64,000 nt of DNA from contig NZ_JACHGN010000002.1 in NCBI RefSeq assembly GCF_014202315.1, forward strand, positions 93,480 through 157,479, read 5' to 3'. The notes beneath the pieces were generated by a model, which saw nothing but the letters and a program-made list of their open reading frames with translations, was not told where the DNA came from and made no database searches. This document shows, piece after piece, positions 14,341-43,503 of the stretch. The translations under genes and the position numbers were made by a program. This DNA is from Thermocatellispora tengchongensis. Its GTDB lineage: Bacteria; Actinomycetota; Actinomycetes; Streptosporangiales; Streptosporangiaceae. The stretch's first letter is position 1. Each line of letters opens with the position of its first letter.

Positions 14341-14464
14341 CACCACGACCAGGGTGACACGGCCGCGAACACGGCGCCGATCGGGACGGGGGCACGGGCG
14401 GCTGGCGCGGGGATCACAAGGACCCAGGCTAATGCCGCGCTCGGCGCTGTGCTCATGGCGCGTG

Positions 14465-14824
14465 CTCGGCATTGGACGGATGTGGTCGCGGAGGGTGCTC
14501 GGCACGGGTGGGCCGTGCCTGCGGCCCGTGCCCGGCATGGGTGGGGTGTGGCGCGTGCTCGGCATTGGACGGGGTGTGGTCGCGGAGGGTGCTCGACACA
14601 GGCGGACTGTGCCTCCGGCCCGTGCCCGGCATGGGTGGCTGTGCCTGCCGCCCGTGCTCGGCATGGGGGGAGTGTGGTGCGTGCTCGGCATGGGCGGGTT
14701 GTGCTTGTGGCGCGTGCCCGGCATGGGTGGGCTGTGCTTGTGGCGCCTGCTCGGGACGGGGGCCGTGCCTGCGGCCCGTGCTCGGCACGGGCGGGGCGTG
14801 CTCATCGCTCGTGCTCGGCACTGG
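14465..14824. repeat. Degenerate minisatellite, about 11 units of 33 or 27 bp
   Basis: The core CTCGGCATGGG (or CCCGGCATGGG, CTCGGCACGGG) recurs at about 14465, 14498, 14531, 14558, 14592, 14625, 14657, 14684, 14717, 14750, 14781 and 14814. Spacings are mostly 33 bp, with two of 27. Flanking words GTGCCTGCGGCCCGTG and GTGCTTGTGGCGC also recur. Units differ from each other, so the array is older than the perfect duplications elsewhere in the window. Confidence 0.8.
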
Positions 14825-15135
14825 CGGCTGGCCCGGACATGACCCGCGCCCAGGCCCATCGCACCCGCTTGGCGTCTGGGCCGACGATCGCTGCCCGGCG
14901 TGACGGGCGCTGAGTTGTGACCCCACGCCCATCCCATGCCTTGCTCCATGCTTCGGGCCGCTGCTTCCTGGATTGGTGGGCTTCCTGGATCGGTGGGCAG
15001 CCGCCGACAGGGCCGGGCTCGGCGAGCGCGGTCATCGCCGGGGCCGGTGGCGAAGCATAGGAAGGCGTCTGGAGTTCTCGCCCGCGCCCCCGGTCCCGGC
15101 CACGCCCGGCGAGGCGCGCCGGGCTGGCCGCACAC

Positions 15136-15230
15136 ACTGGTGGCGGCGGCACCTGGTCGGCCGCCCGCACTGGTGGCGGCGGCACCTGGTCGGCCGCAGG
15201 CACTGGTGGCGGCGGCACCTGGCCGGTGCC
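15136..15230. repeat. 33-bp tandem repeat, 3 copies
   Basis: ACTGGTGGCGGCGGCACCTG followed by GTCGGCCGC starts at 15136, 15169 and 15202, giving an exact 33-bp period; the third copy diverges at its end. The period equals that of the larger array 0.4 kb upstream, although the sequence differs. Confidence 0.85.
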
Positions 15231-28715: not shown

Positions 28716-28746
28716 GCGGCCCCGCGCGTACGCCGCGCGGGGCCGC
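28716..28746. terminator. Strong hairpin after ahpD
   Basis: GCGGCCCCGCGCG (28716-28728) and CGCGCGGGGCCGC (28734-28746) pair perfectly over 13 bp with loop TACGC, 45 bp beyond ahpD and between convergent operons. A bidirectional terminator is likely. Confidence 0.8.
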
Positions 28747-28835
28747 TCTCGTCCGTACAGGCCGCTCTCGTCCGTACAGGCGGTTTTCGTTCGTACGGGC
28801 CGCCTTCGTTCGTACGGGCCGCTTACGTCCGTACG
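28741..28835. repeat. 19-bp tandem repeat, 5 copies
   Basis: Five consecutive 19-bp units starting at 28741, 28760, 28779, 28798 and 28817. The first two are identical (GGCCGCTCTCGTCCGTACA); the others vary at 2-4 positions. Each ends CGTNCGTAC. The array follows the ahpD terminator hairpin, overlapping its right arm. Confidence 0.9.
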
Positions 28836-28839
28836 GGCG

Positions 28840-30390
28840 CTACTCCGCGGGAGCGGAGGACGACCGGGCGGAGCGGAGGGGGAGCTCCTTCAGGGCCAGG
28901 GCGGCGAGGGCGCCGAGCAGGGCGACCGGCACGCCGACCAGGAACACCATGTGCAGGGCCCGGGTGAAGGACTCCAGGATCACCTCCAGCAGCGGGGCGG
29001 GCAGGCCGCGGATCGCCTCGGGGGCGCCCAGGTTGGGCGTGCCGCCGCCGCCGACCTGGATGTGCGCGGCCCGCAGGCCGGAGGCCAGCTCGGCGGAGAG
29101 CCGGTTGGTCAGGATGGCGCCGAAGGCGGCCACGCCGACGGCGCCGCCGAGGGAGCGGAAGAACGCCACGCCGGAGGTGGTGGCGGCCATGTCGGCGCGG
29201 GTGACGGCGTTCTGCGCGGCGAGGATGAGGATCTGCATGCAGGCGCCGAGGCCGGCGCCGAGCACGGCCATGTAGACGCCGATGAGCACCAGCGGGCTGT
29301 CCACGTGCAGCGTCGAGAGCAGGTACAGCCCGAGCGCGACCAGGACCATGCCGGCGACCGGGAAGACCTTCCAGCGTCCGGTGCGGGTGACGAACCGGCC
29401 GACCGCGATCGAGGCGACGAGCAGGGCCAGCACCATCGGCAGGGTCATCAGGCCGGAGGTGGTGGGGCTCATGCCCTTGACGATCTGCAGGTACTGCGGC
29501 ATGAACATCAGCGCGCCGAACATGGAGCCGCCGACCAGCAGCGACGCCGCGGAGGTGAGCACGAAGGTGCGGTTGCGGAACAGCCGCGGCGGCAGGATCG
29601 GGTCGGCCGCCCTGCGCTCGGCGAGCACGGCGAGGCCGAACAGCGCCACGCTGAGCGCGCCCAGGCCGTAGGTCCAGCCGGAGTTCCACTCGAACTCCGT
29701 GCCCCCGAAGGACAGCAGCAGCATCAGGGCCGTGGTGCCGCCGGTGATGGTCGTGGCGCCCCACCAGTCCACCCGGGCGTCCCGGCGCACGAAGGGCAGC
29801 TTGAGCACCCGCTGGATGACGAAGAAGGCGACGACGGCGAACGGGATGCTGATCCAGAAGCACCAGCGCCAGGACAGGTTGTCCACGATGAACCCGCCGA
29901 GCAGCGGTCCCGCGACGGTGGAGACCCCGAACACCGCGCCGATGTAGCCGGAGTAGCGCCCGCGCTCGCGCGGCTCGACGACGTCGCCGAGGATGATCTG
30001 CGGCAGCGCCTGGAGGCCGCCGGCGCCGATGCCCTGCAACGCGCGGGCCGCGATGAGCTGGCCCATGTTCTGGGCGAACCCGGCGGCGATGGCGGCGATG
30101 GTGAACACGCCCAGGGCGACCTGGAACATCCGCTTCCTGCCGTACAGGTCGGAGAGCTTGCCCCACAGCGGGGTGGACGCGGTCATGGTCAGCAGCGTGG
30201 CGCTCGCGACCCAGGCGAGCTGGTCCTGCCCGCCCAGTGTGCCCACGATCGTGGGCAGCGCGGTCGCCACGACCGACGTCGAGATCATCGACGTCAGCAT
30301 GGCCAGCATCAGACCGGCCAGGATCTCCAGCACCTGCCTGTGGGTGAAGCGTGGCGCGGCGTCCGTCTTGGCCGGTTGTTCGGTCAGCAA
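28840..30390 (-). CDS. DHA2-type MFS drug efflux transporter (14 membrane segments)
   Basis: 516 residues from TTG 30390 with a G-rich ribosome site. MFS DHA2 motifs: motif A GKLSDLYGRKRMFQ, motif C GVSTVAGPLLGGFIVDNLSWRWCFWISIPF, plus TSVVATALPTIVGTLGG, with about 14 hydrophobic helices. It exports drugs or toxic metabolites by proton antiport. The divergent TetR gene starts 80 bp away and is the likely repressor. Confidence 0.9.
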   Translation of the reverse strand: MLTEQPAKTDAAPRFTHRQVLEILAGLMLAMLTSMISTSVVATALPTIVGTLGGQDQLAWVASATLLTMTASTPLWGKLSDLYGRKRMFQVALGVFTIAAIAAGFAQNMGQLIAARALQGIGAGGLQALPQIILGDVVEPRERGRYSGYIGAVFGVSTVAGPLLGGFIVDNLSWRWCFWISIPFAVVAFFVIQRVLKLPFVRRDARVDWWGATTITGGTTALMLLLSFGGTEFEWNSGWTYGLGALSVALFGLAVLAERRAADPILPPRLFRNRTFVLTSAASLLVGGSMFGALMFMPQYLQIVKGMSPTTSGLMTLPMVLALLVASIAVGRFVTRTGRWKVFPVAGMVLVALGLYLLSTLHVDSPLVLIGVYMAVLGAGLGACMQILILAAQNAVTRADMAATTSGVAFFRSLGGAVGVAAFGAILTNRLSAELASGLRAAHIQVGGGGTPNLGAPEAIRGLPAPLLEVILESFTRALHMVFLVGVPVALLGALAALALKELPLRSARSSSAPAE

Positions 30391-31171: not shown

Positions 31172-32077
31172 GTGGGAGAACGGCTCGTGATCGCGCTCGG
31201 CGGCAACGCCATGACCGCGCCCGACGGCAGCGCCTCGCCGCAGGACCAGCGCGCGGCCGTCGAGGCGGCGATGAAGCACGTCGGCTCCCTCGCCGCCGCC
31301 GGCCATCAGGTGATGCTCACCCACGGCAACGGCCCGCAGGTGGGCAACCTGCTGCTGAAGAACCAGATCGCCGCCGACGTGGTGCCGCCGGTCCCGCTCG
31401 ACTGGTGCGGCGCCCAGACCCAGGGCACGATCGGCACGCTGATCCTCAACGCGCTCACCCACCCCGCCGCGGTCGTCGTCACCCGCACCCTCGTGGACGC
31501 CGCCGACCCCGCCTTCGAGGACCCGGTCAAGCCCATCGGCCGCTACTTCACCGAACAGGAGGCCCGCCGCCTGGAACGCCTCGGCCAGACCTGGCGCCGC
31601 TTCGAGCGTGGCTGGCGGCGCGTCGTGGCCTCGCCCGAGCCGCGCGAGATCCTGGACGCCCCGGCCGCCGCCGCCCTGCTGGACCGCGGGTACGTCGTGG
31701 TGGCCGCGGGAGGCGGGGGAGTGCCGGTGGTGCGCGGCACCGACGGGCGCCTGCGCGGGGTCGAGGCCGTGGTGGACAAGGACCTGGCCGCGGCGCTGCT
31801 CGCCCGCTCCATCGGCGCGAGCGCCCTGGTCATCGCCACCGACGTGCCCTGCGCCGTCGCCGGCTACGGCACCCCCGCCGCCCGCCCGATCCGCGAGACC
31901 ACCGCCGCCGAGCTGCGCCTCCTGCACGCGGCCGGCCACTTCGCGCGTGGCAGCATGGGCCCCAAGGTCGAGGCCGCGCTCCGCTTCGTCGAGCACGGCG
32001 GCGCCCGCGCCGTGATCTGCTCCCTGGACGACCTGGGCGCGGCGATCACCGGCACTGCCGGGACGGTGGTCCGATAA
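31172..32077 (+). CDS. arcC: Carbamate kinase
   Basis: 301 residues from GTG 31172. Amino-acid kinase fold: VIALGGNAMTAPDG at the N-terminus, LTHGNGPQVGNLLLKNQ, VPLDWCGAQTQGTIG, VVAAGGGGVPVV, GVEAVVDKDLAAALLA and SMGPKVEAALRFVEHGG. It interconverts carbamoyl phosphate plus ADP and carbamate plus ATP. No arginine deiminase or ornithine carbamoyltransferase is nearby; it precedes a cyclic-amide hydrolase instead, suggesting a role in pyrimidine- or triazine-derived nitrogen use. Confidence 0.92.
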   Translation: MGERLVIALGGNAMTAPDGSASPQDQRAAVEAAMKHVGSLAAAGHQVMLTHGNGPQVGNLLLKNQIAADVVPPVPLDWCGAQTQGTIGTLILNALTHPAAVVVTRTLVDAADPAFEDPVKPIGRYFTEQEARRLERLGQTWRRFERGWRRVVASPEPREILDAPAAAALLDRGYVVVAAGGGGVPVVRGTDGRLRGVEAVVDKDLAAALLARSIGASALVIATDVPCAVAGYGTPAARPIRETTAAELRLLHAAGHFARGSMGPKVEAALRFVEHGGARAVICSLDDLGAAITGTAGTVVR

Positions 32078-32142
32078 AAGGCGGTCCGATAGAAGACGGT
32101 CCGATAGAAGACGGTCCGATAGAAGGCGATCCGATAAAGGCC
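32068..32142 (+). repeat. 15-bp tandem repeat (5 copies) starting at the arcC stop
   Basis: Units begin at 32068, 32083, 32098, 32113 and 32128, each GGTCCGATAGAAGAC or a variant (last unit GATCCGATAAAGGCC). The first unit carries the TAA stop of the carbamate kinase gene. Because the unit is 15 bp, every copy presents an in-frame TAA or TAG. Confidence 0.9.
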
Positions 32143-32182
32143 CGACACCGACCATGACGACATGCTGAGCAGAGGGATGGAA

Positions 32183-33289
32183 ATGCCGGATCCGATCGAG
32201 GTACGCAAGGTTCCCATCGAGAGCGTGACCGACGCGTCCGGGCTCGCCCGGCTGATCGACGACGGAGTGATCGAGGCCGACCGGGTGCTCGCCGTCATCG
32301 GCAAGACCGAGGGCAACGGCGGCGTGAACGACTACACCCGCATCCTCGCCGACCGGGCGTTCCGCGAGGTGCTGATCGCCAAGGGCACCCGCACCCCCGA
32401 GGAGGTCGCGCAGATCCCGCTGGTGTGGTCGGGCGGCACCGACGGCGTGCTCAGCCCGCACGCGACCATCTTCGCCACCGTGGACCCGGCCACCGCCCCG
32501 CGTACCGAGGAGCCCCGCATCTCGGTGGGCGTGGCCATGAGCGAGGTCATCCTGCCGGAGGACATCGGCAGGCCCGCCATGGTGGAGAAGGTCGCCGCGG
32601 GAGTGCGCGAGGCCATGAAGATCGCCGGCATCGACGACCCCGCCGACGTCCACTACGTGCAGACCAAGACCCCGCTGCTCACGCTGGCCACCATCAACGA
32701 CGCCAAATCGCGCGGCCAGGACGTGGTCACCGAGGACACCGGCCCCTCCATGGACATCTCCAACTCCACCACCGCCCTCGGCATCGCCGTCGCCCTGGGC
32801 GAGATCGAGATGCCCAGGGCCGACCAGATCCACCGCGACCTGTCCCTGTACTCCTCGGTCGCCTCCTGCTCCAGCGGGGTCGAGCTGGACCGGGCGCAGA
32901 TCGTGGTGGTCGGCAACGTACGCGGCATCGGCGGGCGCTACCGCATCGGCCACAGCGTGATGAAGGACGCCCTGGACGCCGACGGCATCTGGGAGGCGAT
33001 CCGCTCCAGCGGCATCGACCTGCCCGAGCGCCCCCACCCCAGCGACCTGCGCGGACGCCTGGTCAACGTGTTCATGAAGTGCGAGGCCGACCCGACGGGC
33101 CGCGTACGCGGGCGGCGCAACATCATGCTCGACGACAGCGACGTCCACTGGCACCGCCAGATCAAGGCCACCGTCGGCGGCGTGGCCGCCAGCGTGACCG
33201 GCGACCCGGCCGTCTTCGTCTCCGTGGCCGCCGTCCACCAGGGCCCCTCCGGCGGCGGCCCCGTAGCCGCCATCGCCGACCTAGGCTGA
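32183..33289 (+). CDS. Ring-opening amidohydrolase: cyanuric acid hydrolase/barbiturase
   Basis: 368 residues from ATG 32183 (AGAGGG upstream; ATG 32162 also in frame). The AtzD/TrzD/barbiturase family has three repeated domains, each giving a Ser-Lys pair: Lys41 and SGG at 83-85; Lys162 and Ser225 in [12 protein letters not shown]; Lys328 and [14 protein letters not shown] near 347-360. [22 protein letters not shown] is the typical start. It opens cyanuric acid (to carboxybiuret) or barbiturate (to ureidomalonate); the sequence alone does not separate these. It follows arcC by 105 bp and is probably co-transcribed. Confidence 0.9.
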
Positions 33290-39845: not shown

Positions 39846-39884
39846 GGTGATCAGCCGGGGTGATCGGCCGGGGTGATCAGCCTC
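39846..39884. repeat. 13-bp tandem repeat, 3 copies, at convergent gene ends
   Basis: GGTGATCAGCCGG, GGTGATCGGCCGG and GGTGATCAGCCTC follow one another between the SGNH hydrolase and the dinG-like gene, running into the last codons of the latter. Confidence 0.85.
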
Positions 39885-41955
39885 CGGCGGCGGTGAGGCG
39901 CTTCAGGGCGGCGCGGACCATGCCGGGGTCGGTCGTGGTCCAGAACGGCGGGAGCGAGGCGCGCAGGAACCCGGCGTAGCGGGCGGTGGCCAGGCGCGGG
40001 TCGAGCACCGCGACCACGCCCTTGTCGGTCTGCGCGCGCAGCAGCCGGCCCGCGCCCTGGGCGAGCAGCAGCGCGGCGTGGGTGGCCGCCACGGCCATGA
40101 ACCCGTTGCCGCCCTTGGCCATCACGTGCCGCTGCCGGGCCGAGGCGAGCGGGTCGTCGGGGCGCGGGAAGGGGATGCGGTCGATGATCACCAGGCGCAG
40201 CGACGGGCCGGGCACGTCCACGCCCTGCCACAGCGACAGGGTGCCGAACAGGCAGGTGGGCTCGTCCTCGGCGAACTGCTTGACGAGCAGCATCGTGGAG
40301 TCGTCGCCCTGGCACAGCAGCGGCACGTCCAGGCGGTCGCGCAGGGCCTCGGTGGCCGCCTTGGCGGCGCGCATGGAGGAGAACAGCCCGAGGGTGCGCC
40401 CGCCCGCCGCCTCGATCAGCTCGGCGATCTCGTCGAGGTAGGCGTCCTGGAGGCCGTCGCGGCCGGGCGGGGGCAGGTGCTTGGCGACGTACAGGATGCC
40501 GCTGCGGGGATGGTCGAACGGCGAGCCGACGTCCAGGCCGGTCCACTCGGACGCGTCGTCCGACCCGCTCCGGCCCAGGCCCCACTGCGCGGCCAGGCCG
40601 TCGAAGGTGCCGCCGAGCGCCAGCGTGGCCGAGGTGAGCACCACGGTCCGGTTGCCGAACAGCTTCTCGCGCAGCATGCCCGCGACCGTCAGCGGGGCGA
40701 TGCGCAGCGTCGGCGGGAACCTGCCGCCGCCCTCGTCCAGCCACACCACCTCGGCGCGGTCCACCTCCTCGGCGTGCCCGTACGCGTCGAGCATCCGCTG
40801 GGCGGTGTCGTGCACCTCGTCCAGCGCGGTGAAGGCGGCCTTGCGGGCGCCCGCGGCCTCGGCGTCGTCCTTGCCGGTGCCGCGCGGGCCGAGGGCGGTG
40901 ATGCACGCGCGGGCGGCGTCGCGTACCAGGGCGAGGGTCTGGCCCAGCACCGGGGGCAGGTCGTCCACGCGCCCCGGGGGCGCGGCGGCGAGCAGGGCCT
41001 TGAGGTCCTCGGCGGCCTCCTGCAGCCGGTCGGCGACCTGCTGCTCGATGAGCCGGCCCACCCGGCGCACGGCCAGGCTGACCGTGGCCTCGGACAGCTC
41101 GCCGGTGACCACGGAGGTGACCCGGTCCACCAGCTCGTGCGCCTCGTCCACGACGACCACGTCGTGCTCGGGCAGCAGCTCGAAGTCCTCCATCGTGTCG
41201 ATGGCGAGCAGGGAGTGGTTGGTCACCACGATGTCGGCCTCGCCGGCCCGCGCGCGGGCCAGCTCGGCGAAGCACTCGGCGCCGCTCGGGCACTTCTGCG
41301 CGCCCAGGCACTCTCTGGCGCTGACCGAGAACTGCCGCCAGGCGTTGTCGTTGACCCCCGGCACCAGCTCGTCGCGGTCGCCGGTCTCGGTTTCCTCGGC
41401 CCACTCCTGGATGCGCTGCACCATGCGCCCGGTCGCGCTGACCTCGCGCGGGTCGAAGAGCTGGTCCTGCTCCTCCTCCGGCCACGACGCGGTCATCTTG
41501 TAGCGGCACAGGTAGTTCCTGCGGCCCTTGAGAATCGCGAACGTCGGCGGGTGGGGCAGCTCGGGGGCCAGCGCCTCCGCCAGGCGGGGCAGGTCGCGGT
41601 CCACGAGCTGGCGCTGCAGCGCGATCGTGGCGGTGGAGACCACCACGGCCGAGCCCGACAGCATCGCGTGCCGGATCGAGGGCACCAGGTACGCCAGCGA
41701 CTTGCCGGTGCCCGTGCCGGCCTGCACGGCGACGTGCTCCTCGCGGTCGATCGCGTCCTGGACGGCCCGCGCCATCCGCACCTGGCCGGGCCGCTCGCTG
41801 CCGCCCAGCGCGTTCACGGCGGCGCCGAGCAGCTTCTCCACAGGAGGCAGGAGCTCGGCGCCCTTCGCCTTCCTCGCGCGGGGGGAACGCTCGCGTCCGG
41901 TGGACGGGGCGGCGGTGCGGCTGGGGTCGATGGTGGCGTCCGGCACGGCAGTCAA
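39877..41955 (-). CDS. DinG/Rad3-type ATP-dependent DNA helicase
   Basis: 692 residues. Superfamily 2 XPD/DinG-like helicase: Walker A AGTGTGKS (79-86), DEAH box (270-273), four cysteines for an Fe-S cluster (Cys150, 216, 222, 228), SATLALGG, and the C-terminal QGVDVPGPSLRLVIIDRIPFPRPDDP and AQGAGRLLRAQTDKGVVAVLDPR motifs. It unwinds DNA 5'-3' in repair. Monocistronic, convergent with the SGNH gene. Confidence 0.92.
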   Translation of the reverse strand: MTAVPDATIDPSRTAAPSTGRERSPRARKAKGAELLPPVEKLLGAAVNALGGSERPGQVRMARAVQDAIDREEHVAVQAGTGTGKSLAYLVPSIRHAMLSGSAVVVSTATIALQRQLVDRDLPRLAEALAPELPHPPTFAILKGRRNYLCRYKMTASWPEEEQDQLFDPREVSATGRMVQRIQEWAEETETGDRDELVPGVNDNAWRQFSVSARECLGAQKCPSGAECFAELARARAGEADIVVTNHSLLAIDTMEDFELLPEHDVVVVDEAHELVDRVTSVVTGELSEATVSLAVRRVGRLIEQQVADRLQEAAEDLKALLAAAPPGRVDDLPPVLGQTLALVRDAARACITALGPRGTGKDDAEAAGARKAAFTALDEVHDTAQRMLDAYGHAEEVDRAEVVWLDEGGGRFPPTLRIAPLTVAGMLREKLFGNRTVVLTSATLALGGTFDGLAAQWGLGRSGSDDASEWTGLDVGSPFDHPRSGILYVAKHLPPPGRDGLQDAYLDEIAELIEAAGGRTLGLFSSMRAAKAATEALRDRLDVPLLCQGDDSTMLLVKQFAEDEPTCLFGTLSLWQGVDVPGPSLRLVIIDRIPFPRPDDPLASARQRHVMAKGGNGFMAVAATHAALLLAQGAGRLLRAQTDKGVVAVLDPRLATARYAGFLRASLPPFWTTTDPGMVRAALKRLTAAGG

Positions 41956-42237
41956 CGCTACCCGCTCGGACGGACAGTCGCGCCGATACGCGCCCCCCGC
42001 GCCCCGGCGGGGGGTGTCCGGACGGTGTCCGGGCAGTGACCGGCTGGACGCATCCCGGCATTCCCGGAGCCGGACGGGACGCCGCGTGGCAGACTGGCAC
42101 CAGCCCGAGCGGCTCTCCCCGATGATCGAAGACGATCTGCCATCGGTGATGGGTGGGGGTCAGAGATAGGGACGAAAGGGCTGGTTCGGTAGGGTTCTCC
42201 GGGGTCGAGTGGACGAATAAAGGCTGGTAACTGCACT

Positions 42238-43503
42238 ATGTCTGCCATGTCGGAAGTTGTCCCATTGCCGTCGTTCGGTGAGGTGTTCTTCGATTCCCGA
42301 GGTCAGGACCGGGTCCTCCGGGTCACCTGGCACGAGGGGACCTTGGTGCTGAGCCTGTGGCGCGGCGAGATGTGCACCGCCAGCTTCCGCATGCCGCTGG
42401 AGGACGTCGGACGCCTGCTCGACACGCTCGACGACGGCTACGCCGAGGCCGGGGGCGACGAGCTCGTCCAGTCGGGCCAGCACGTCGTCTACCCGCAGGC
42501 CGACGGCGGCCAGCCCGCCGACTACCAGCCGGCCGCCGACTACCAGCAGCCCGCGGCCGACTACCAGGGCGACTACCCCGAGACCGGCCACTACGCCCGC
42601 CCGCCGCAGCGCGACTACCAGGGCGACTACCCGCCGGGCGACTACGCGGCCGACTACCAGGCCCAGGACTACCAGGGCGCCGACTACCAGAACACCGACT
42701 ACCAGAACACCGACTACCAGGGCGCGCCCGACTACCAGACCGCTTCCGACTACCAGAGTGCGCCCGACTACCAGGGCGGCCCCGAGTACCGGGGCGGCGA
42801 GTACCAGCCCGCCGACTACCAGCCCGCCGACTACCAGCCCGCCGACTACGGTCCGGGCGCCGACTACCACCAGCCCGGCGGCCACTACGGCGAGCCCGAG
42901 CGTCCCCTGCCCCCGCAGGAGGAGCGCCCGGCCGCGGCCCTGGGCCCCAACGACGTCCTCGTCGCCCGGGGCACGCCGCCCACCGACAAGCTCGTGGCGG
43001 GCCACTCCACCGCCCCCGACGCGGCCGTCCCGCGCGAGAACATGATCGTGGGCGACTCCCTCCCGTACGGCCAGCCCCCGCACCAGCCGTCACACCACGG
43101 CACCGACCCCGGCTACCCGATGCCCGCCGGCGACCCGTACGGCCCGCCTCAGGACGCGTACGGCACCTCGCCGTCCGTCCGTCCCCCGGCCGGCCCCCGC
43201 TCCCAGAGCGGCGGCCCGCCCACCGACCCGTACGGCTTCCCGGCCGACGAGGTGGACCAGCACGACCCGTACGCGCAGGGGCGCACCTACGGCAGGCAGG
43301 TGCCCCATCCCGACCCGTACGGCACCCCGTCCTACCCGGACGACCGCCCCGCCTACGGCGACCCGCAGCCGGGCCGCGGCGCCCCCGTGGACCCCGCCGA
43401 CCCGCTCGGCCTAGGCCAGGGCATGTACGCGACCGGCGAGCGCCTGCGCCCCGAGCACGGCCGCCCCGGCCACGACGACCGGGACTCCCGCACCGACTGG
43501 TGA
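42238..43503 (+). CDS. DYQ-repeat, Tyr/Gln/Pro-rich disordered protein
   Basis: 421 residues from ATG 42238 (ATG 42250 alternative). The N-terminal ~80 residues are a small folded domain (VVPLPSFGEVFFDSRGQDRVLRVTWHEG, FRMPLEDVGRLLDTLDDGY). Residues ~92-215 contain 14 DYQ triplets plus DYP, DYA, DYG, EYQ and EYR variants. The rest is Pro/Gly/Asp/Tyr-rich, ending DRDSRTDW. No signal or membrane segment. The composition resembles low-complexity regions that self-associate, but that is inference. The N-terminal domain seems related to short actinomycete hypotheticals; function unknown. Confidence 0.75.
   Translation: MSAMSEVVPLPSFGEVFFDSRGQDRVLRVTWHEGTLVLSLWRGEMCTASFRMPLEDVGRLLDTLDDGYAEAGGDELVQSGQHVVYPQADGGQPADYQPAADYQQPAADYQGDYPETGHYARPPQRDYQGDYPPGDYAADYQAQDYQGADYQNTDYQNTDYQGAPDYQTASDYQSAPDYQGGPEYRGGEYQPADYQPADYQPADYGPGADYHQPGGHYGEPERPLPPQEERPAAALGPNDVLVARGTPPTDKLVAGHSTAPDAAVPRENMIVGDSLPYGQPPHQPSHHGTDPGYPMPAGDPYGPPQDAYGTSPSVRPPAGPRSQSGGPPTDPYGFPADEVDQHDPYAQGRTYGRQVPHPDPYGTPSYPDDRPAYGDPQPGRGAPVDPADPLGLGQGMYATGERLRPEHGRPGHDDRDSRTDW
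42511..42870 (+). repeat. DYQ-coding low-complexity repeat tract
   Basis: GACTACCAG (DYQ codons) recurs 14 times with 6-30 bp between copies, including exact runs such as CCCGCCGACTACCAG three times in a row (15-bp period) and AACACCGACTACCAG twice. Confidence 0.9.

Follow-up and report, generated by a model that had tools for sequence, protein, structure and literature searches.

At positions 42238–43503 of the stretch of DNA that we analyzed (64,000 nucleotides, hereafter the window), a gene encodes a protein in which a small, nearly frozen N-terminal domain of probably PC4-like fold is followed by a long tail. Alignment of close relatives indicates that the Streptosporangiaceae conserve a tyrosine-rich tail, predicted to be disordered, rather than the DYQ triplet that stands out in the protein of the present genome. 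Whereas folds of this type are known, the way the parts are combined is a new variant. The original prediction, which had been drawn from the letters of this one genome and had described a self-associating DYQ-repeat protein, described the tail correctly but misjudged which part of it is conserved; moreover, the predicted PC4-like fold, the motif islands that are conserved in the tail, and the neighborhood with dinG and fpg had escaped it. Our preferred reading, held tentatively and at rather less than even confidence, is that the protein serves genome maintenance in connection with nucleic acid and has an SSB- or FUS-like architecture, with a tail that associates with itself through tyrosine stickers, a reading in which we infer the nucleic-acid binding, the self-association or condensation, and the partner proteins. 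The features on which the argument rests are the following:

42238–43503, forward strand: the whole gene, 421 amino acids, with an ATG start
42238–42456, forward strand: N-terminal domain, residues 1–73, ββββα, predicted to be PC4/PUR/Whirly-like from the AlphaFold model and structural matches
42514–42864, forward strand: DYQ/tyrosine tract, residues 93–209, with 21 tyrosines and 14 DYQ triplets
39877–41955, reverse strand: DinG/XPD-like helicase gene, the divergent neighbor (Helicase_C_2, E 9.4e-35)
42183–42237, forward strand: leader- or promoter-like conserved block GGTTCGGTAGGGTT...GTCGAGTGGACGAATAAAGGCTGG directly before the start codon, from the alignment

The count of fourteen DYQ triplets given by the original prediction is correct, but they lie within 106 residues (residues 95–198, DNA 42520–42837) instead of about 125. 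When the tract is shuffled residue by residue, such triplets number 0.5 on average and 4 at most in 10,000 shuffles. The regular spacing of tyrosine was borne out as well: the 21 tyrosines of residues 93–209 have a spacing CV of 0.18 compared with 0.84 after shuffling, and none of 10,000 shuffles was as even. The tail of this protein contains 10.1% tyrosine and 12% aspartate and carries a net charge of −35. The proposed division into a compact N-terminal domain and a Pro/Gly/Tyr-rich tail likewise agrees with the full-length AlphaFold model (24 rows), in which order is confined to the N-terminal domain (residues ~12–70, ten-residue blocks up to 91); past residue 80 the ten-residue blocks average a pLDDT of 39–53, with the sole exception of 67 at residues 381–390.

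Identical 15-bp runs do occur in the tract (CCCGCCGACTACCAG, three times), and the longest exact repeat (at 42802 and 42817) extends over 33 bp. Counted in frame, repeated 15-mers amount to 16 extra copies, where the codon usage of the other called genes in the window predicts 5.2 (0.14% of 5,000 simulations reach 16) and that of the tract itself predicts 11.8 (10% of simulations reach 16). From these figures, local tandem duplication in the DYQ tract is likely in this one genome of the genus; the stronger statement that the tract is still expanding is not supported by them.

For comparison, genome contigs were scanned for relatives and the best 80 of 116 were used, so that the set leans toward close ones; their records name Nonomuraea, Microbispora, Sphaerisporangium, Microtetraspora, Planotetraspora, and other genera, all of which we take to belong to the Streptosporangiaceae. 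Alignment of orthologs, suggested earlier as a check on the DYQ spacing, went against it: among these best 80 of 116, DYQ is absent from 64, occurs once in 13, twice in 2, and three times in 1 (L002), and DYQ was consequently dropped as a conserved unit. What is kept is the tyrosine itself, which accounts for 4.5–11.3% of tail residues (median 7.5%) in every one of the 79 complete proteins (from the best 80 of 116, the present one included; the contig-truncated L010 and L038 were omitted from the tail counts). The unit that carries it varies: PQY is the commonest tyrosine tripeptide in 21 proteins, DPY and YGQ in 8 each, DGY in 5, and the others in a few each, adding up to more than 20 different top tripeptides, and in 61 of the 79 proteins one tyrosine tripeptide recurs beyond what 95% of shuffles give. 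Within the 100 residues densest in tyrosine, the spacing is more even than in shuffles (p<0.05) in 51/79, with different units, whereas over the whole tail the spacing is significantly even in just 1/79; as the 79 proteins share kinship, these spacing counts are not independent, and tandem duplication alone can yield local evenness. The densest tyrosine stretch is centered before a conserved DVLVA island in 22 proteins and after it in 56, for which reason the tyrosine arrays probably arose more than once. The net charge of the tail ranges among orthologues from −50 to −8 (median −22).

Such a long, predicted-disordered, and locally tyrosine-spaced region is indeed unusual against its genomic surroundings, in keeping with the rarity originally claimed for it. 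The 79 complete family proteins contain 8–19 tyrosines in their densest 100 residues. A first control on called genes (764 genes) gave a maximum of 4; because the gene caller is crude, finding the family gene in 72/80 loci and missing it in L113, L119, L128, and L129, we repeated the control on open stretches in six frames. Here, 2,644 other stretches of at least 150 amino acids were present in the 80 loci, 1,490 of them with a hydrophobic-poor 100-residue window, and the highest tyrosine count in these windows was 5. This comparison bears on the notion that DYQ multiplied by neutral minisatellite expansion in a tail that has no need for tyrosine, which we consider highly improbable: the array is private to the present genome and its repeats are identical over 15 and 33 bp, and in L057 (446 amino acids) the tail holds seven tandem copies of a tyrosine-free FSQPDA unit, so that non-tyrosine units expand there too, yet tyrosine is enriched in 79/79 tails despite their differing units, and hydrophobic-poor stretches elsewhere in these loci have at most 5 tyrosines per 100 residues.

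The tail also contains islands that are conserved in sequence:

42577–42603, forward strand: island PETGHYARP (family form PGTGQYxRP), with its TG motif in 78/79 complete proteins
42940–42972, forward strand: island LGPNDVLVARG, as xDVLVA(R/G)G in 78/79
43027–43068, forward strand: motif VPRENMIVGDSLPY, PREN-type, in a subset only (20/79)
43390–43416, forward strand: island DPADPLGLG, DPxDPL-type in 68/79, coinciding with the rise in pLDDT to 67 (block 381–390)
43432–43500, forward strand: C-terminal module TGERLRPE...RTDW with tryptophan last, TGER in 78/79 and the final tryptophan in 76/79

The order of the main three islands is identical in 76/79, the remaining 3 are without one of them, and no reordering occurs; the 79 proteins mostly end in R-(D/E/G)-W. 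Conserved islands within a disordered chain are usually binding sites, and these would be candidates for such a role. It is conceivable, though on balance improbable, that the domain binds nucleic acid and the tail is merely a flexible, motif-bearing tether of an SSB-like hub, with tyrosine serving docking or solubility and condensation playing no part. That the islands and the C-terminal tryptophan are better conserved than the tyrosine units agrees with a tether, as does the strongly negative charge of the tail, which disfavors self-association; a tether leaves unexplained why tyrosine, and not other spacer-compatible residues, is kept in 79/79 and is locally even in 51/79. A further idea, that the tyrosines form a phosphorylation or modification array read by a kinase or phosphatase and the tail is a signaling scaffold, strikes us as very unlikely. 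DYQ and EYQ place tyrosine beside acidic residues and thereby resemble a known type of substrate site, tyrosine in acidic context, but the residues flanking tyrosine are unconserved and the top tripeptides differ between orthologues.

We then turned from the tail to the domain that precedes it, which is nearly frozen, with a mean column identity of 94% (30 rows, the window included), and which has a single match in its own genome of 11.65 Mb. In the AlphaFold model of the domain (pLDDT 82), strands at residues 13–18, 24–32, 35–42, and 45–53 are followed by a helix at residues 54–70; the full-length model predicts the same four strands and helix, i.e., the sheet-then-helix order of the PC4-like fold. 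The idea of a PC4/YdbC/Whirly relationship was recorded from this strand pattern ahead of the structural search results. Of the first 25 VIA rows, 20 are PC4/PUR/Whirly-type nucleic-acid binders, corresponding to 10/12 distinct proteins: fly and human PURA, Borrelia PUR, human PC4, a Burkholderia PC4 homologue, MoSub1, SP_0782 (presumably kin of YdbC), YdbC, MRP, and Whirly WHY1. The best match has a Z of 7.4 and an rmsd of 2.7 over 60 residues, a Z in the range that the tool deems common; the Burkholderia PC4 homologue has 6.1 and human PC4 (1pcf) 5.4, and the rest of the 25 rows are the KhtT N-domain (four rows, Z 5.0–5.8) and the uncharacterized EF_3132 (one row). A Foldseek search with the domain ranked MRP1/MRP2 and T5 PC4 at 1–3 and PURA first at rank 9, and returned nothing at E ≤ 0.001. 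Because a best Z of 7.4 is common and no Foldseek match reaches E ≤ 0.001, the PC4-like assignment, which rests on predicted structure, is probable only.

Sequence searches placed the domain in no annotated family: the whole protein has no match in Pfam and NCBIfam at E ≤ 1, and Pfam PC4 (PF02229) matches neither any of 35 domain sequences at E ≤ 1, which leaves the domain outside that family, nor any sequence of this genome at E ≤ 0.001. According to a review on PURA, the PC4-like fold recurs without sequence conservation, and some proteins consist just of PC4-like domains and partly unstructured regions (PMC7990775). Several weak or spurious matches were set aside. The best single-member matches among the 35 domain sequences (0.035 in Pfam, 0.017 in NCBIfam) involve unrelated families and one member each and were ascribed to chance. 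Designed “Pizza” propellers, found with E down to 1.7e-9 in a search of PDB sequences with the domain profile, were rejected because this E sums repeat stretches: the three alignments listed consist of up to seven of them, each with an i-Evalue of at least 24 over 21–31 residues. In PHROGs, weak one- or two-member matches (best 0.0015; one “DNA binding protein” at 0.0051) were likewise disregarded. Phage records gave no match, plasmid records a single one in an 11.85-Mb Nonomuraea record, and a BFVD fold search nothing at E ≤ 0.001, its top rows being mostly small uncharacterized phage proteins.

Conservation on the faces of the sheet was assessed in 48 of 55 diverse rows (rows at least 80% identical to the window were left out, the window itself was kept). 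R25, S39, W41, and C46 do not vary, and R28, D19, P11, and V37 hardly do, with top frequencies of 0.98 for R28, 1.0 for S39 and W41, 0.89 for H32, and 0.87 for R51; moreover, the non-core phase of the sheet is polar yet conserved like the core (mean top frequency 0.74 vs 0.76). From strand alternation we infer that R28, H32, S39, W41, and R51 share the open, non-core face of the predicted sheet. Such a conserved polar open face would suit nucleic-acid binding; the acidity of the domain (net charge −6, in orthologues −4 to −8) would not. Because domain and tail are both strongly acidic, which is atypical for nucleic-acid binders, binding and condensation are both to be doubted to that extent.

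The genomic context provides a further line of evidence. Among the best 80 of 116 relatives, the DinG/XPD-like helicase gene lies upstream on the opposite strand in 80/80 loci, and downstream, on the same strand, a gene with a Na_H_Exchanger match is found in 72/80. Of the 8 loci without the exchanger, 3 run into contig ends, and L021, L030, L047, L064, and L079 offer enough sequence and keep the gene and dinG. It is quite unlikely, in our view, that the domain is instead a protein–protein module, for example a KhtT-N-like subunit of the downstream Na+/H+ exchanger, with a tail that senses or scaffolds at the membrane. The KhtT N-domain, which belongs to an antiporter subunit, does appear among the structural matches and the exchanger gene is a frequent neighbor; PC4/PUR-type matches outrank KhtT, however, the five loci just named do without the exchanger, and the commonest neighbor found outside the family is fpg. 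This neighbor, which like the divergent helicase gene counts in favor of the preferred reading, encodes formamidopyrimidine-DNA glycosylase, and Pfam matches place it divergently to the domain gene in 20/34 non-family genomes. This is a raw count: the 20 genomes represent four GTDB families, yet 13 come from one, and the 34 were examined out of 39 with a match (G207, G214, G520, G605, and G771 were left out). The distance of fpg from the domain is <500 bp in 14 and 0.8–1.8 kb in 6, two of these with a called gene between; no fpg match was found near the domain in 14/34, some of which are on short contigs. Among distant loci of the own family, the divergent dinG is kept in L111, L113, and L130 and lies 5.7 kb away in L112, while the tailed L116–L119, L125, L128, and L129 have neither dinG nor fpg within the 8–13.5 kb examined. 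A metallophosphoesterase gene lies near L114, L115, L117–L119, and L127, with a YccF-type gene in three of these six.

Profile searches, which covered the own phylum, detected the domain in 100/150 genomes of the own GTDB family, in at least 43/296 genomes of the class, and, with a broader profile, in at least 9/396 genomes of the phylum; the latter two tallies are lower bounds, as 19 and 14 first-look candidates per genome were scored, respectively. The original prediction had held that orthologs with the domain and no tyrosine-repeat region would speak against it. Such proteins exist in 15/15 non-family genomes, where 2–21 residues follow the domain, and do not occur among the 79 complete close orthologues; in a set of 20 genomes with the domain, no more than 124 residues were counted from where the domain match begins. 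Among the distant own-family loci that were examined, 11 carry tails of 163–660 residues with 2.8–13.1% tyrosine, including further arrays (NGYAEG in L116, GYNGQA in L125, DQY in L130), and the spacing in the densest window is significantly even in 4 of them (L113, L116, L125, and L130), whereas L114, L115, and L127 are short with 20–73 residues after the domain. Because non-family homologues are tailless and the distant own-family loci are mostly tailed, the tyrosine tail appears to have been gained within the own GTDB family. A search of the available literature returned no paper on the domain family. A more far-reaching version of this history is, in our judgment, doubtful: a PC4-like domain ancestrally linked to fpg and base excision repair would have gained in the Streptosporangiaceae a tyrosine tail that forms repair condensates, an architecture FUS-like by independent evolution, in which tyrosine number and spacing are selected while the unit turns over.

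In the preferred genome-maintenance reading, residues 1–73 would act as a PC4/PUR/Whirly-type ββββα domain on single-stranded or distorted nucleic acid, which would be held by the open β-sheet with the conserved Arg28, Ser39, Trp41, and Arg51. The tail would behave as a disordered sticker-and-spacer chain, whose tyrosines provide weak multivalent self-association, and the islands PGTGQY, DVLVARG, DPxDPL, and TGERLRPE together with the C-terminal tryptophan could dock partner proteins in a manner comparable to the SSB linker and C-tip. The tail might thereby concentrate partners, possibly the adjacent DinG-like helicase, at the sites bound by the domain. Against this reading stand the acidity, the middling fold scores, and the tailed relatives without repair neighbors.

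Three known systems invite comparison. Proteins of the PC4-like fold bind nucleic acid, for the most part as dimers. With PC4-like proteins (PC4/Sub1, PUR-alpha, bacterial PUR, Whirly, YdbC, and MRP1/2) the protein shares the predicted ββββα order, the combination of a folded domain with an unstructured region, a conserved open sheet face, and helicase or repair neighbors in many genomes; it differs in its acidic domain, its very long tyrosine-rich C-terminal tail, and the missing Pfam PC4 match. The tip of SSB is acidic and has phenylalanine last. Bacterial SSB resembles the present protein in that a folded core is followed by a long linker that is disordered and by a conserved C-terminus whose last residue is aromatic, and also in its helicase/repair context, whereas the domain here is predicted to be ββββα instead of an OB barrel, the linker is tyrosine-rich and acidic, and the end is mostly R-(D/E/G)-W. 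As described in two studies, the assembly of core, disordered linker, and C-terminal peptide in bacterial SSB can condense (PMC10906006, PMC11947617); according to one of them, SSB does not condense without the linker, and its droplets enrich partners such as RecQ (PMC10906006). The FET family (FUS, EWS, TAF15) offers a Tyr/Gln/Gly-rich disordered region with spaced tyrosines on a putative nucleic-acid-binding domain, to which the tyrosine content and low pLDDT of the present tail correspond. FET low-complexity domains are rich in Tyr, Gln, and Gly and have few charged residues; the tail here, in contrast, is rich in Asp and Pro and far from poor in charges, with its net −35 and 12% Asp. The present protein is, moreover, bacterial, and it differs in its fold, in how its parts are arranged, and in its motif islands; the comparison implies no shared ancestry. 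The 79 complete bacterial proteins form a natural comparative set, in which a near-frozen domain is joined to a tail that keeps tyrosine and swaps its repeat unit. Whether selection acts on how many stickers there are and how they are spaced, rather than on sequence, can be tested directly with this set. Should the domain bind DNA, genome maintenance in actinobacteria would gain a PC4-like, non-OB player, and the FUS-type architecture would have a bacterial parallel.

Close relatives share a conserved block of ~35 bp directly upstream of the start codon, which suggests that the gene is real and regulated; GAGTGGACGR is found 30–32 bp before the ATG in 77/80 orthologues (best 80 of 116). Related blocks were recognized by eye before the gene in L111, L112, and L130. 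A regulon of this block was considered and discarded, the own genome holding one exact copy and two places at 3 mismatches, and a weak terminator-like site that the scan placed inside the coding start was disregarded. The scan found no sigma-70-like promoter at the gene, and Rfam gave nothing at gathering score in the window.

The window contains several other repeats. A 15-bp tandem repeat of 8.5 copies at 967–1091 lies within the called gene 360–1295 and encodes a repetitive stretch. A diverged minisatellite with a 33-bp unit in ~12 copies occupies 14446–14827, outside called genes, and a second 33-bp array lies at 15126–15226. Between the called genes 31172–32074 and 32162–33286, the 15-bp unit GGTCCGATAGAAGAC is present in 4.6 copies (32068–32136). 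At 28740–28838, outside called genes and beside the gene 28843–30390 on the reverse strand, the 19-bp unit GGGCCGCTTTCGTCCGTAC recurs in 5.2 copies and is possibly an operator array.
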